From: Kaustia mangrovi
GTDB taxonomy: Bacteria > Pseudomonadota > Alphaproteobacteria > Rhizobiales > Im1
Assembly (NCBI RefSeq): GCF_015482775.1
Contig: NZ_CP058214.1
Location: 4,020,501-4,084,500 of the forward strand
Direction: 5' to 3'
DNA: 64,000 nucleotides
Part shown: one piece after another, positions 3,881 through 46,915 of the stretch
How positions within the stretch are numbered: position 1 is the first letter of the stretch
Layout: each line of letters starts with the position of its first letter
Notes under the pieces: generated by a model
What the model was told of the DNA's origin: nothing
Databases searched by the model: none
What the model saw: only the letters and a program-made list of their open reading frames with translations
Program-made: the position numbers and the translations under genes

Positions 3881-4408
3881 TCAGGCCCGACGTTTACCGC
3901 CTCCAGGGGCCGCCCTGGCCTCGCGCAAGCGCTTTCGAAGCCGCGCCTCGAGCCAGGGCACCAGGCTCAACAGCTCGTCGCGATCGCCGGCGTCCTCGGC
4001 CCGCTCGATGAGCGCATTGTAAGCGCGCGTGAGCTCGTCCGACAGCGCGTCCGGCGGCAGTTTTATGCCCTCCTCCTTGTGAACGCGTGCAACGGCGCGG
4101 CTGACTTCCTTGAAAACTTCCGCCTGGATGCCGGACGTGCTGGACGATGGGCTAGATTCCTCCCCTCCGATGTCACCGAGGTTCCTGCCCGCCAGCCAAT
4201 CGAGGCTGGTACCGGTTTTCGCCGCCAGACGTGAAAGACCTTCAAACGAAGGGTCTGCCTTACCTTCAATCCAGCTTTGCAAGGTCGACTTGGCAACGCC
4301 GGCTGCACTTGCCGCCTCGGCCCGGTTCTTGAACCGTTTTTCGAGTTCTCTCAACCGGTTTCCCACTTCAGTACGGAAAGAGGGAACGGCCTTGTCCTTC
4401 TCTGACAT
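3881..4408 (-). CDS. Phage repressor (c-type, helix-turn-helix)
   Basis: A 175-residue protein with an XRE-type helix-turn-helix at about residues 13-70 (key run AGVAKSTLQSWIEG) followed by a Ser-rich linker and a charged helical C-terminus. It is transcribed leftward, away from the rightward early genes, which is the position of Mu c. Start ATG at 4408; an upstream in-frame ATG at 4480 would lie inside the operator region and is not preferred. It probably holds the prophage silent by binding the palindromes at 4409-4539. No strong terminator follows, so its transcript might leave the prophage into dctQM. Confidence 0.85.
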   Translation of the reverse strand: MSEKDKAVPSFRTEVGNRLRELEKRFKNRAEAASAAGVAKSTLQSWIEGKADPSFEGLSRLAAKTGTSLDWLAGRNLGDIGGEESSPSSSTSGIQAEVFKEVSRAVARVHKEEGIKLPPDALSDELTRAYNALIERAEDAGDRDELLSLVPWLEARLRKRLREARAAPGGGKRRA

Positions 4409-28132: not shown

Positions 28133-28641
28133 ATGTCGTCTGTCTCCATATCGGCCGATGTCGAGGGGCTCGCGCAAGCGGTCGCGGCCATCGACCGGCT
28201 TGCCGAGCTGCCGACCGGCGACCTCCTCGACGTCATCGGCGCGACCGGCGAAAGCCAGACGCGCCGGCGGATCGAGGAGGAGAAGACCGCGCCGGACGGC
28301 ACGCCCTGGGCGCCGAACCGGGCCGGCACCTCCATCTTGCTTCAGACCGGACGGCACCTGCGCGACTCCATCGGCTATCGCCGCGTCGGTTCGGACGAGG
28401 TCGAGTGGGGCTCCGCCTGGGAGCATGCGGACGTCCACCAGTTCGGGATGACCATCAAGCCGCGAAACGCAAAGGCGCTGAGCTTCGAGATCGGCGGCGA
28501 GACGATCTTCGCCCGCGAGGTGACGATCCCCGCGCGGCCGTTCCTGGGGCTCTCGGCCGACAACGAGGCGGAGATCGCAGAGGTGATCGACGACTTCATC
28601 GACGCGACCATCGGGGGCATCCCCTCGGGGGGACGCCATGA
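28133..28641 (+). pseudogene. Virion morphogenesis protein gpG, with probable 1-bp deletion near its end
   Basis: The first 165 or so codons encode a typical gpG protein (SQTRRRIEEEKTAPDGTPWA, LLQTGRHLRDSI, PARPFLGLS). The expected stop would be the TGA at 28639, overlapping the next ATG as in most junctions here, but it is out of frame. Six Gs at 28627-28632 precede it; one more G would restore the stop. As it stands the frame runs on through the next genes to 29473, giving 446 residues with a meaningless tail. The cause is a lost G, a sequencing error, or less likely ribosomal slippage on the G run. Confidence 0.75.
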
Positions 28642-29102
28642 GCATGCCCAGGATCGCGGATCTCCTGGACGCCATCGTCGCCGAGCTCGGCGCGCTCGAT
28701 GGCATAAAGGACTGCGCGCGCCATGGCGGGCGGTTCGACGTCGCCGAGCTCAAGCGCTTCGCCGTCTCCGCACCCGCCGTCCGCGTCGCCGCGCTCGGCA
28801 TCCGCGCGGTGCGCCAGGTCGACACCGGCGAGCAGGATGCCCGCCTTCGCATCGGCGCCTTCATCGCCACGAAAGACCGGCCGGAGCGATCGCGCGACGA
28901 CGCCGCGCTCGCTTACGTCCAGCGCGCGATAGAGACCGCCCAGCTCGGTCGCTGGGGGCAGCTCAAGGTGCATCCCGCGCGCGATCTCACGGCGGAGAGC
29001 CTCTATTCGGGCGAAGTCCAGGCAACGGGCATCGCGCTGTGGGGCGTGGTCTGGACCCAGACCGTGCGCATCGGCGACCCGGACGCGGAGCTCGCCCCAT
29101 GA
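28638..29102 (+). CDS. Mu gp37-like protein (DUF1834)
   Basis: A 154-residue DUF1834 protein with IADLLDAIVAELGALDGI at the N-terminus and FIATKDRPERSRDDAALAYV in the middle. In Mu gp37 is a tail-terminator-like protein made before the tail genes. Its ATG is part of an ATGA that should hold the gpG stop, and its own end overlaps the gpV start. It may close the tail or connect it to the head. Confidence 0.85.
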   Translation: MSMPRIADLLDAIVAELGALDGIKDCARHGGRFDVAELKRFAVSAPAVRVAALGIRAVRQVDTGEQDARLRIGAFIATKDRPERSRDDAALAYVQRAIETAQLGRWGQLKVHPARDLTAESLYSGEVQATGIALWGVVWTQTVRIGDPDAELAP

Positions 29103-29682
29103 GCTGGGCGGGCGATGTCGAGATCCAGCTCGCCGAGGTGGAGCGCCGGCTCGCCAATGCGGTGCGTGTCGGCAAGGTGGCGCAAGTCGACCCGGCCAAG
29201 GGGCTGGCGCGCGTGGAGATCGCCAGGGACCGGATGGCAATCCCGTCCTCACCCCCTGGCTGCCCTGGAGCGAGCGCGCCGGCGGCATCCGCACATGGTC
29301 GCCGCCGAGCGTGGGCGAGCAGGTCCGCGTCGTCGCGCCCTCGGGCGAGGTGGCGCAAGGCTGGGTCGATCCGGGCGGGTTTTCGAGCGAGACGCCCGCG
29401 CCGTCGGGCGATGGCAACCGCCATGTCATCGACAATGGCGAGGTCCGCGTGGAGATCGCCCGCGACGAGGTGATCGTGACGCGCGGGCAGGACGTGGTGG
29501 AGATGCGCGACGGCTATATCCGCCTGAAGCAGCACGACAACGATGCCCGCCTCGTCGCCCATGCCGACCAGGCCAAGATCGCCTGGGCGCTGCCGACCGA
29601 GCGCGCCGTCTTCGTCGATGGCGACGGCATCTGGCTCACTGAGGATGCGGGCCGCAAGGACGATCCGTTCCCGGACATTTGA
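29099..29682 (+). pseudogene. Baseplate assembly protein gpV, interrupted by a probable 1-bp deletion
   Basis: The frame starts MSWAGDVEIQLAEVERRLAN and continues to RVEIARDR; the same protein then goes on in another frame from DGNPVLTPWLPWSERAG (29233) through VGEQVRVVAPSGEVAQGWVD to 29682. The join needs one extra G in the GG at 29232-29233. With it the product is about 195 residues with the gpV baseplate-spike fold (OB domain then beta-helix, DEVIVTRGQDVVEMRDGYI). Without it neither part is functional. This is the second of three such defects. Confidence 0.8.
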
Positions 29683-29711
29683 TGTAGTGGACATTTGAAG
29701 GAGGTTTCGAA

Positions 29712-29942
29712 GTGGCGTCGAAAGAGCTTTACAAGATCGTCGAGGGCGTCTGGATCGCCGGCAAGTGGCACGAGCCGGGCGACAAGGTCGCGCTCACCCC
29801 GCAGGAGCGGAAATATCTGCCCTATTGGGCGCTCGCCCCGGTCAAGGCCCCCGCGAAAAAGCCGGCCGAGAAGACCGCGGCCAAGGCCCCGCCGGAGCCC
29901 GAGCGCCAGGCGAAGCCCGCCGCCAAGACGTCCCGGAGCTGA
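29712..29942 (+). CDS. Hypothetical 76-residue protein
   Basis: A small protein with an N-terminal beta-rich part (IVEGVWIAGKWHEPGDKVAL) and a Lys/Ala/Pro-rich tail like a linker. It is 30 bp after gpV with GAAGGAGG before the start. No known family; possibly a small baseplate or tail accessory protein. The sequence looks intact. Confidence 0.6.
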   Translation: MASKELYKIVEGVWIAGKWHEPGDKVALTPQERKYLPYWALAPVKAPAKKPAEKTAAKAPPEPERQAKPAAKTSRS

Positions 29943-29946
29943 TCCC

Positions 29947-30302
29947 GTGCCCGGCGTCGACCGCGATAGGGGAGCGCGCTGGATGGCTTCGACCATGTCG
30001 TCCAGTCCATCGGCGTGATCCTCACCACGCCCAAGGCCACGCGCGTCATGCGACGGGAGTTCGGCTCCGACGTGCCCGCGCTGCTCGACCGGCCGCTCAA
30101 CGCCGCGACCGTGGTCGACGTGATGGTCGCGGCCGCCGACGCCATCGACCGGTGGGAGCCGCGCTTCCGGGTCGAGAGCATCGACGTCGCCGGCGGGCCG
30201 GACGGGCGGCTCGATATCGCGGTCAACGGCACATATTTCCCGCGCGGCCATCTCGGCGACTTCACGCGGGCAAGCGAGGCACGCGCGGAGGTGAGCCTGT
30301 GA
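29947..30302 (+). pseudogene. Baseplate protein gpW (gp25-like), with probable 1-bp deletion
   Basis: A GTG at 29947 (GGAG 8 bp before) begins MPGVDRDRGAR, and the gpW protein continues in another frame as LDGFDHVVQSIGVILTTPKA and on to 30302. The frame break falls around 29976-29980 and one more C in GCGCG-CTGG would repair it. The intact product would be about 118 residues, of the gp25/gpW baseplate wedge family (LTTPKATRVMRREFGS). From the in-frame GTG at 30015 a shortened protein of 95 residues is still possible. Confidence 0.75.
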
Positions 30303-31156
30303 CCGGCATCACATTCACGGATCTGGAAAACCTCGATCCCCCGCAGATCGTCGACGAGCTGGACTACGAGGCGCTGCTCGCCGCGATCCGCGCCGACCTG
30401 CTCGCGCGCTTCCCGGATGTGGAGGGACTCATCGATCTGGAAAGCGAGCCGGCGCGCTATCTGATCGAGGCGGTCGCCTATCGCGAGCTCCTGCTGCGCG
30501 CCCGCGTCAACGATGCGGTGCGCGCCAACATGCTCGCCTTCGCCGGCGGCTCCGATCTCGACCATCTCGCCGCCTTCTACGATGTGGTGCGCCTGGCCGG
30601 CGAGAGCGACGAGGCGCTCCGCCGGCGCACCGTGCTCGCCATTGCCGGGCGCTCGCCCGGAGGCACCGCGCCGCGCTACCGCTCCGTCGCGCTCGGGGCC
30701 GATATCCGCGTCGCCGACGCCATCGCCTGGCGCGACGATCTCTCGCCCGTCGTCCAGGTCGCCGTCTTCGCGACCGACAATGGCGGCATGGCGGACGCGG
30801 CGCTTCTGGAGGCGGTGCGCGTGGCGCTGAACGACCCGGCGGTGCGCATGGTCAACGACACGATCGCGGTGCGCTCGGCCGTCACGACCACGGTCGATGT
30901 CGAGGCCGATATCTGGCTCCTGCCGGAGACGCCCAACTCCGTCTTCGACGTGCTGGAAGAGACCCTGCGCGAGGCCTGGGCGCGCGAGAGCGGGCTCGGC
31001 TTCGATATGACGCGCTCCTGGCTCACCGCGCGCCTCATGGTCTCCGGGGTGCACCGCGTGGACATTAGGAGCCCCGCCCAGAACATCGTGCTGCCGCCTT
31101 TTGAGGCCGCGCGTTTCGGCACCATCACTCTCAACAATGCCGGGCGGGACTACTGA
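30299..31156 (+). CDS. Baseplate protein J (Mu gp47-like)
   Basis: A 285-residue protein of the baseplate J family: FTDLENLDPPQIVDELDYEA, LIDLESEPARYLIEAVAYRE and the GGSDLDHLA motif. GTG 30299 overlaps the gpW stop. It forms the baseplate wedge with gpW and gpI. The length is slightly short compared with Mu gp47 (about 350). It is followed by a large hairpin (31178-31227). Confidence 0.9.
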   Translation: MTGITFTDLENLDPPQIVDELDYEALLAAIRADLLARFPDVEGLIDLESEPARYLIEAVAYRELLLRARVNDAVRANMLAFAGGSDLDHLAAFYDVVRLAGESDEALRRRTVLAIAGRSPGGTAPRYRSVALGADIRVADAIAWRDDLSPVVQVAVFATDNGGMADAALLEAVRVALNDPAVRMVNDTIAVRSAVTTTVDVEADIWLLPETPNSVFDVLEETLREAWARESGLGFDMTRSWLTARLMVSGVHRVDIRSPAQNIVLPPFEAARFGTITLNNAGRDY

Positions 31157-31166
31157 TGGCTCTCTT

Positions 31167-31226
31167 GCGTTTAGAACGGCACCGGCCCGCTCCCCCACCC
31201 GACCGCCCAAAGGAGCGGGCCGGTGC
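31167..31226 (+). repeat. 60-bp hairpin repeat, copy 1
   Basis: GGCACCGGCCCGCTCC (31178-31193) pairs perfectly with GGAGCGGGCCGGTGCC (31212-31227) across an 18-base loop. The whole 60-bp unit recurs at 44837-44896 with only 2 differences, including the loop. It lies between baseplate J and tail protein I. It may be a terminator, an mRNA processing or stability element, or a small mobile palindrome. Confidence 0.85.
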
Positions 31227-41496: not shown

Positions 41497-41775
41497 ATGG
41501 CGAAAGGCACCGATTACACATTGCTCCACCCGAAGGAAATCGGCGGCCACAAGATCACGACCGTCACGCTGCGCCGGCCGACCGGCAAGGACATCCGCGC
41601 GGTCGGCAGCGTGACGCGGCTGGAGAATACGGACTTTCTGGTGAAGCAGGTCGCCGATCTCTCCGGCCTGCCGCTGGAGACGATCGACGAGCTCGACGGC
41701 GAGGACGTGCTCAACCTGATCGAGAAGGTGAGCGTTTTTTTCGGCGGGAGCCAGGCGAGGACGTCGACGAGCTGA
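41497..41775 (+). CDS. Tail assembly chaperone (P2 gpE/Mu gp41-like)
   Basis: A 92-residue protein with the tail-chaperone features PKEIGGHKITTVTLRRPTGKD, in parts PKEIGGHKITT and VTLRRPTGKD, and LSGLPLETIDELDGEDVLNL. It is encoded between tube and tape-measure genes, like P2 E. Its last codons include GTT TTT TTC at 41734-41742, a run of seven Ts that can shift ribosomes by -1, so part of the product should carry a longer second half (41736-41903). AGGAGG precedes the ATG. Confidence 0.88.
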   Translation: MAKGTDYTLLHPKEIGGHKITTVTLRRPTGKDIRAVGSVTRLENTDFLVKQVADLSGLPLETIDELDGEDVLNLIEKVSVFFGGSQARTSTS

Positions 41776-41903
41776 TCGCGGATATCTGCGCGGTCTTCGC
41801 CTGGTCGCTATGGGAGGTCGAGGCCATGGCCATAGACGAACTGGTCGCCTGGCATGGGCGCGCGATGGAACGGGCGGCGCTGAAAGCCCGGCTCAGGCTT
41901 TAG
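41736..41903 (+). CDS. -1 frameshift extension of tail chaperone (E'-like)
   Basis: In the -1 frame, from the T run on, the sequence reads EDVDELIADICAVFAWSLW and AMAIDELVAWHGRAMERA, matching the GpE-type family of P2-like phages, and ends at TAG 41903. It has no start of its own with a good ribosome-binding site. The slippery site T TTT TTC is the classic efficient kind. The fused protein would be about 135 residues. It is needed in fixed ratio with the short form for tail-length assembly in related phages. Confidence 0.85.
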   Translation, partial: FFRREPGEDVDELIADICAVFAWSLWEVEAMAIDELVAWHGRAMERAALKARLRL

Positions 41904-42165
41904 CCTCTTCCCCGTCGCCCTTCTTCATCTCCGCCGCGATCTTGCGGGCAAGGCGCTCGTCGCGCTCCTCGATGGCGTCGCCGGCGGATTTCATGATCCG
42001 GTCGACCAGTCGCCAGGCGAGAACGAGAGGGATAAGTGCGCCGATACCGGTCGTGATCCACCCCATCCAGAAATCAACCTCTTCGGGGATCGTTATGTAT
42101 CCCTGATCCTGGATGAACCAAACGCCCAGGAAAACGGCGAGCACCAAGAACAGAAACCGAAGCAT
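41893..42165 (-). CDS. Small membrane protein on the opposite strand (cargo)
   Basis: A 90-residue protein with two membrane segments (about residues 3-18 and 33-52) and a charged C-terminal helix (DAIEERDERLARKIAAEMKK). It is read leftward between the chaperone and tape-measure genes, overlapping the frameshift product by 11 bp. Its start codon lies 11 bp from that of the tape measure on the other strand. No family is recognised. Confidence 0.5.
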   Translation of the reverse strand: MLRFLFLVLAVFLGVWFIQDQGYITIPEEVDFWMGWITTGIGALIPLVLAWRLVDRIMKSAGDAIEERDERLARKIAAEMKKGDGEEAKA

Positions 42166-44630: not shown

Positions 44631-44830
44631 TGGCGAGATCCCGCGAGGGCGACACCATAGACCTCATCGCCTGGCGCGAGATGGGCACGACCACGGCGGT
44701 GGAGGAGATCCTGGAGCTCAATCCCGCGCTCGCCCGCCTCGACCCCGTGCTGCCCATCGGCACGCCGGTCGAGCTGCCCGAGATCGTGCCGTCGCCGCCC
44801 GTCCGCCAGACGGTGCGGCTGTGGGATTGA
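44627..44830 (+). CDS. Tail protein X (P2 gpX-like, LysM-like)
   Basis: A 67-residue protein, REGDTIDLIAWREMGTTTAV and LELNPALARLDPVLPIGTPV, of the tail X family with a LysM-like fold. It overlaps gpU (ATGATG start) and is followed by the second copy of the 60-bp hairpin. In P2 it acts between tail tube and baseplate. Confidence 0.9.
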   Translation: MMARSREGDTIDLIAWREMGTTTAVEEILELNPALARLDPVLPIGTPVELPEIVPSPPVRQTVRLWD

Positions 44831-44836
44831 GCCCAT

Positions 44837-44896
44837 GCGTCTAGAACGGCACCGGCCCGCTCCCCCACCCGGCCGCCCAAAGGAGCGGGCCGGTGC
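44837..44896 (+). repeat. 60-bp hairpin repeat, copy 2
   Basis: The same unit as at 31167-31226 with 2 base differences over 60 bp. The arms are at 44848-44863 and 44882-44896; the last base pair of the stem is lost. It separates tail X and late control D, with no other sequence between the genes. Confidence 0.85.
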
Positions 44897-46035: not shown

Positions 46036-46250
46036 TGGAGAGTATCCGGTGCGGATCTTGCCGCCGCCTCTTGTGCAGGGCGGCTGAGCGAGCGATAGCT
46101 GGCGTCGTCGAGATCAAGTGCCCGCGCTGCGGGACGATCAACAGCCTGAGGCCAACGAGCCCTCAACCCGAACGCCGGCCGGAGCGTCCCGAGAAAGACA
46201 AGGACGCATGCACTGGCAGCTCCACAACACCGACGCCATCGCCTGGCTGA
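46035..46250 (+). CDS. com: Com-family translational regulator
   Basis: A 71-residue zinc-finger protein with the Com pattern: MESIRCGSCRRLLC and VEIKCPRCGTIN, with C6, C9, C29 and C32 as zinc ligands. Mu Com binds the mom mRNA and exposes its start codon so that the DNA-modification enzyme is made late. Here the gene overlaps by 43 bp a DNA methyltransferase gene in the place of mom. The C-terminal Pro/Arg-rich tail is longer than usual. Confidence 0.9.
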   Translation: MESIRCGSCRRLLCRAAERAIAGVVEIKCPRCGTINSLRPTSPQPERRPERPEKDKDACTGSSTTPTPSPG

Positions 46251-46915
46251 TCGACCAGTCGCCCGACCAGTTCGATGCCCTGGTGACCGACCCGCCCTAT
46301 TCCTCCGGCGGGCTCCACACGAAGGACCGCACGGCCGACAGCGCCAACAGCAAGTATGTCAGCAGCCCCGGCCTCTATCCGGAGTTCGCCGGCGAGAATC
46401 GCGACCAGTTCAGCTATATGCAGTGGTCGACGCTCTGGCTCACCGCCGCGCACCGGACGCTCAAGCCTGGCGCCCCGGCCATGATCTTCACCGACTGGCG
46501 CCAGCTCGCCGTCATGTCCTCGGCCATCCAGGCGGCGGGCTTCACCCTTCGCGGCTGCATCGCCTGGGACAAGACGGAGGCCGTCCGCCCCCAGAAGGGC
46601 CGCTTCCGCCAGCAGGCCGAGTTCATCCTCTGGGGCTCGAAAGGCCCCTGGCACGACAAGACGGGCCCGACGCATCCCGGCGTCTTCCGTTTCCCCGTCA
46701 CCGCCGGCGGCCCCAAGCGCCACACGACCGGCAAGCCCGTCCCCCTCATGGAGGCCCTGGTGAAGGCCTGCCCGCCGGGCGTGGTCCTCGACCCCTTCGC
46801 CGGCTCCGCCTCGACAGGCGTGGCCACCCTCCGCTCCGGCCGCCACTTCGTCGGCGTCGAGCGGGAGGAGGCATACTACCGGATCGCGTGCGAGAGGCTG
46901 AGCGAGGAGGGTTAG
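46208..46915 (+). CDS. DNA methyltransferase (N4/N6 amino type)
   Basis: A 235-residue methyltransferase. The catalytic motif DPPY is at 28-31 and the SAM-binding motif DPFAGSASTG follows at 195-204, the beta-class order (N6-adenine or N4-cytosine). It starts inside com, with AAGGA just before ATG 46208. In Mu, mom is at this place and protects phage DNA from host restriction. A base methyltransferase would do the same; the recognition sequence cannot be read from the gene. Confidence 0.92.
   Translation: MHWQLHNTDAIAWLIDQSPDQFDALVTDPPYSSGGLHTKDRTADSANSKYVSSPGLYPEFAGENRDQFSYMQWSTLWLTAAHRTLKPGAPAMIFTDWRQLAVMSSAIQAAGFTLRGCIAWDKTEAVRPQKGRFRQQAEFILWGSKGPWHDKTGPTHPGVFRFPVTAGGPKRHTTGKPVPLMEALVKACPPGVVLDPFAGSASTGVATLRSGRHFVGVEREEAYYRIACERLSEEG

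Follow-up and report, generated by a model that had tools for sequence, protein, structure and literature searches.

Single-base losses in three prophage tail genes and across the assembled chromosome of Kaustia mangrovi: probable assembly errors

The prophage tail region and its frame breaks

The analysed window is a stretch of 64,000 bases (G000:C1:4020501-4084500) from the single-contig genome of Kaustia mangrovi (4.63 Mb), and it carries a prophage that combines Mu-like head genes with P2-like contractile-tail genes according to Pfam and PHROG matches. Its gene set includes Mu gp36, gpG (Phage_tail_S), a gp37-like gene, gpV, a small gene, gpW/gp25, gpJ, a tail sheath gene, gpE/E', a tape measure gene and a gpD-like gene, several of these names being presumptive assignments after Mu and P2. 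The part of the tail module considered here contains the following features (window positions):

28133-28641, + strand: gpG-like tail completion gene (Phage_tail_S; Pfam PF05069, E 2e-19; phrog_26)
28627-28632, + strand: run of six G (G6), read from the sequence and identical in the sibling prophage described below
28638-29102, + strand: Mu gp37-like gene in a single open frame (phrog_490, phrog_1072; Pfam Phage_Mu_Gp37 at 21.8 bits, under the cut-off of 25)
29098-29682, + strand: gpV-like baseplate assembly gene in two frames, changing at 29231-29233 (baseplate assembly PHROGs, codon-usage detector, sibling prophage)
29712-29942, + strand: small intact gene between gpV and gpW (open frame; DUF7210 below cut-off)
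29948-30302, + strand: gpW/gp25-like baseplate wedge gene in two frames, changing at about 29966-29972 (GPW_gp25, E 4e-12; phrog_43)
30302-31156, + strand: gpJ-like baseplate gene, intact (Baseplate_J, phrog_6)

A 72-base direct repeat with a long internal hairpin lies between tail genes at 31155-31226 and 44825-44896, and the hairpin pattern was located three times in the genome, twice within this prophage and once within its sibling. Downstream of the tail module, positions 46209-46915 hold a DNA methyltransferase-like gene whose DPPY motif was read by eye.

The preliminary description had reported that gpG, gpV and gpW each lack one base, and all three frame breaks were found in the sequence, its open reading frames and its codon-usage profile, which shows the frame changes. 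The gpG frame that opens at 28133 meets the G6 run and remains open for 446 aa to 29473, beyond the next start at 28638. The gpV frame changes at a point at which the sibling has one base more, and each of the two gpV pieces has a weak match among the baseplate assembly PHROGs (6e-6 and 0.0043). The gpW gene is likewise one base short relative to the sibling, but its break lies some 8-10 bases upstream of the 29976-29980 interval first proposed. The gpV and gpW sites adjoin short runs and no long ones.

Frame breaks were also sought with a Viterbi model on codon usage in which frameshifts are allowed at a cost. The view that no further losses occur in the 64 kb proved roughly true, as the strict setting of this detector reported only 28628 and 29231 in the window (it missed the gpW break and began that gene at 30015 instead), although a looser setting added 49133, which was rejected as a pair of overlapping genes, and the loosest setting gave six more signals of doubtful worth.

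Comparison with a sibling prophage and with gpG relatives

A second prophage lies on the same chromosome at about 3911000-3955000 (L005-L007), about 113 kb upstream, and is 93-94% identical over the region. Recombination, or exclusion of one by the other, would be expected of two prophages this closely related on a shared chromosome. A near-DNA search of 61 genomes gave matches in 20, with close copies only in the own genome, while a phage collection returned 52 records of which none covered 80% of the query, and an exact pattern search in viral contigs gave no matches.

The alignment of the two prophages covers stretches of similarity in segments of at least 500 bases. Within these segments, the only unpaired one-base differences placed inside genes were at 29233 (gpV) and 29969 (gpW), and the window was the shorter copy at both, so that gpV and gpW each occupy one frame in the sibling. 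By our reading of the alignment, every other length difference is either offset close by or situated at a gene border or in intergenic sequence.

The end of gpG behaved differently, as the sibling has exactly the same G6 within a nearly identical tract, and the run is thus not peculiar to the window. The gpG frame of the sibling also reads on, to 515 aa. Codon comparison of the two copies showed constraint on gpG as far as the run (16 synonymous versus 4 non-synonymous differing codons) and on gp37 in its own frame (29 synonymous and 10 non-synonymous codon differences; 10/39). The frame in which gpG reads on is unconstrained, with 5 synonymous versus 35 non-synonymous differences (35/40 differing codons), and an extended gpG fusion protein was rejected on this ground despite the frame being open in both copies.

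The gpG relatives examined numbered 51, comprising 22 from contig collections and the best 29 places outside the own genome when 397 genomes of the order were searched, a search in which further, weaker matches existed. All 51, some of them near-identical to one another, have a stop within 15 residues of the junction equivalent to G6, and the named genomes that carry a relative include Rhizobium, two Stappia, Nitratireductor and Ancylobacter. The shift arrangement was found in 0/51 of these relatives outside the own genome, and only the sibling shares it.

One-base losses outside the prophages

Frame breaks were then counted in 800 kb of the chromosome outside both prophages and in 400 kb from each of three control genomes of the same order, G002 (also of the same family), G059 and G021, for a control total of 1.2 Mb. 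A break was retained when at least 25 codons with a positive score lay on both sides, a filter that reduced the signals from 31 to 19 in the own sequence and from 2 to 0 in G002. The own sample gave 18 one-base losses and one gain, although some of these 19 breaks may be overlap artefacts, one of them (L130, position 5316) lying at a gene junction. In comparison, G002, G059 and G021 gave 0, 0 and 1 breaks, the single one being a gain, so that no loss was detected in 1.2 Mb. Looser settings applied to the first 400 kb gave 51 signals at the loosest and 16 at the middle level. Two further signals were rejected by eye, L071 7688 as a gene junction and L077 311 as the edge of a piece.

Artificial losses and gains were introduced to measure recovery. 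In the stricter run, which used 20 of the 40 own pieces, the detector recovered 38/80 losses in the own sequence and 24, 37 and 46 of 80 in the controls, and 54/80 gains in the own sequence and 25, 49 and 60 of 80 in the controls. An initial run that counted excess signals only recovered 44/60 losses and 37/60 gains in the own sequence compared with 24/60 and 20/60 in G002, a genome in which the detector recovers fewer introduced changes. These recovery rates indicated that neither the contrast between own and control sequence nor the bias towards losses is an artefact of the detector.

The losses were associated with G/C runs. A run of at least 4 lay within about 12 bases of 13/18 losses compared with 13.6% of random positions (binomial p 2e-8), and a run of at least 5 lay near 4/18 compared with 2.6% of random positions (p 0.001). 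Runs of at least 7 numbered only 3 in the own 800 kb versus 5, 7 and 14 in the 400 kb samples of the controls, a contrast that we take as supporting evidence only, since the genomes differ in G+C (controls 61.8, 64.2 and 69.3%; own 67.2%).

The detected losses amount to about one per 44 kb, which after correction for sensitivity gives a rough estimate of about 200 (~219) genome-wide. Under a uniform rate, about 7.7 pairs within 740 bases and about 0.45 triples within 1350 bases would be expected in the genome. The three-loss cluster in the window is somewhat tighter than this rate gives, and one of its three members is not independent. In L130, a similar cluster in the thi genes has losses at 3984, 4867 and 5316, of which 5316 is at the gene junction mentioned above, together with a gain at 2892, and its three losses span at most 1.4 kb. 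The breaks in these thiamine genes (G000:C1:2892-5316) are probably further assembly errors.

Conserved genes were broken in the same manner. The valine-tRNA ligase gene (valS) lies in three pieces in three frames, with each step a one-base loss by coordinates, and no other place in the genome exceeded the family cut-off for a second valS. None of 12 relatives had valS pieces that differed in frame within a single contig; two carried two pieces sharing a frame, and in two the gene was split over contigs. The radA gene occupies two frames in the own genome and forms one main piece in 12/12 relatives. For valS, mutY, radA, thiE and thiD, the two halves of each gene align to successive parts of a single NCBIfam model. 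As valine-tRNA ligase is indispensable to a living cell, the valS losses lie in the sequence and not in the organism. An early detector signal in serS, which would have made it a broken essential gene, was false, as serS (G000:C1:515365-516873) is one open frame of 587 aa; it matches its model in two pieces of that frame and seems to carry an extra internal stretch in comparison to relatives.

Origin of the missing bases

Losses in an indispensable gene, an excess over control genomes that is biased towards losses, and an association with homopolymers are the marks expected of assembly error, and all were observed here. We consider it very probable that the three missing bases in gpG, gpV and gpW are errors of an assembly that contains such errors genome-wide. 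The local sequencing or assembly error originally proposed is therefore well supported as an error, but a purely local one was rejected because like losses are spread over the chromosome and affect valS and other conserved genes. Base calling would have dropped single bases, mostly in or near G or C runs, along the whole chromosome, a pattern typical of incompletely polished long-read assemblies, and long reads were presumably used here. Whatever process split valS in the assembly probably also produced the gpV and gpW losses. The G6 of gpG is probably a longer run called short, which would account for gpG in both prophages at once and which the rarity of G/C runs of at least 7 in the assembly can explain, yet the shared run fits common descent or gene conversion equally well and to that extent counts against the error reading.

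A comparable error pattern has been described in long-read bacterial assemblies, where false deletions predominate at homopolymers and affect A/T more than G/C runs (PMC12007338). As in our genome, the errors in the cases described there are mostly false deletions at moderate homopolymers, occur genome-wide and split conserved genes (PMC12007338). The cases differ in that A/T runs are hit most there, whereas the genome studied here has 67% G+C and its losses gather at G/C runs.

Recent inactivation of the baseplate genes, the other origin first suggested, would require real one-base deletions of gpV and gpW in this copy and an older real loss at the gpG end in both prophages. Prophages do decay, one-base losses in structural genes are what decaying prophages would likewise show, and the gpG state is indeed common to both copies. 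Codon comparison with the sibling, taken from the nucleotide alignment in the reading frame of the window, bears on this in both directions: for the gpV upstream piece (4 synonymous, 8 non-synonymous) and the gpW downstream piece (1 and 4) the differences are too few, or too often non-synonymous, for constraint to be proved, but the part of gpV downstream of its break is under constraint (21 synonymous, 6 non-synonymous) and contains no internal stop. A check for wider decay of the prophage gave no further strict break in the window. The same type of loss in housekeeping genes, including valS which the living cell needs, also sets this genome apart from one in which only prophage genes are decaying. 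No positive evidence for inactivation was found, and we regard it as unlikely.

Programmed shifts at these sites, which the preliminary description had also raised, were unsupported, as gpV and gpW are single-frame in the sibling and the gpG read-on frame is unconstrained. The form of this idea that deserves consideration concerns gpG, where a real G6 shared by both prophages would act as a slippery site on which ribosomes step back by one base. Translation of gpG would then terminate at the stop overlapping the gp37 start, which would couple gpG to gp37. The in-frame G GGG GGA fits the general slippery-site form X XXY YYZ; the site is identical in both prophages; and the -1 frame at G6 reaches a stop directly, at 28639-28641. 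Programmed -1 frameshifting is established for phage tail assembly chaperones, as in P2 E/E+E' and lambda G/GT, and gpG resembles these in being a tail gene with a slippery-looking run and a downstream stretch in the -1 frame. However, gpG is a tail completion protein rather than a chaperone and its relatives do without a shift, ending at an ordinary stop in every case; no obvious purpose would be served by a shift that only terminates the protein; the assembly contains few long G/C runs; and a shift in gpG would leave the gpV and gpW breaks unexplained. The prophage moreover carries the shift site customary in contractile tails, in its normal position. A gpE/E' pair at 41497-41904 contains a T7 run at 41735-41741, with E' lying in the -1 frame. 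Both gpE and E' have matches to tail families, and the sibling preserves the E' reading frame, an arrangement that we take to be the well-known programmed -1 shift of contractile-tail chaperones in its ordinary, expected location. A programmed shift at the gpG run is accordingly highly improbable.

Under the preferred reading of genome-wide assembly error, gpG, gpV and gpW are probably intact in the organism. The breaks described here point to no new biology, and pseudogenes, gene loss and programmed shifts read from this genome sequence are unsafe before they have been checked by accurate reads.
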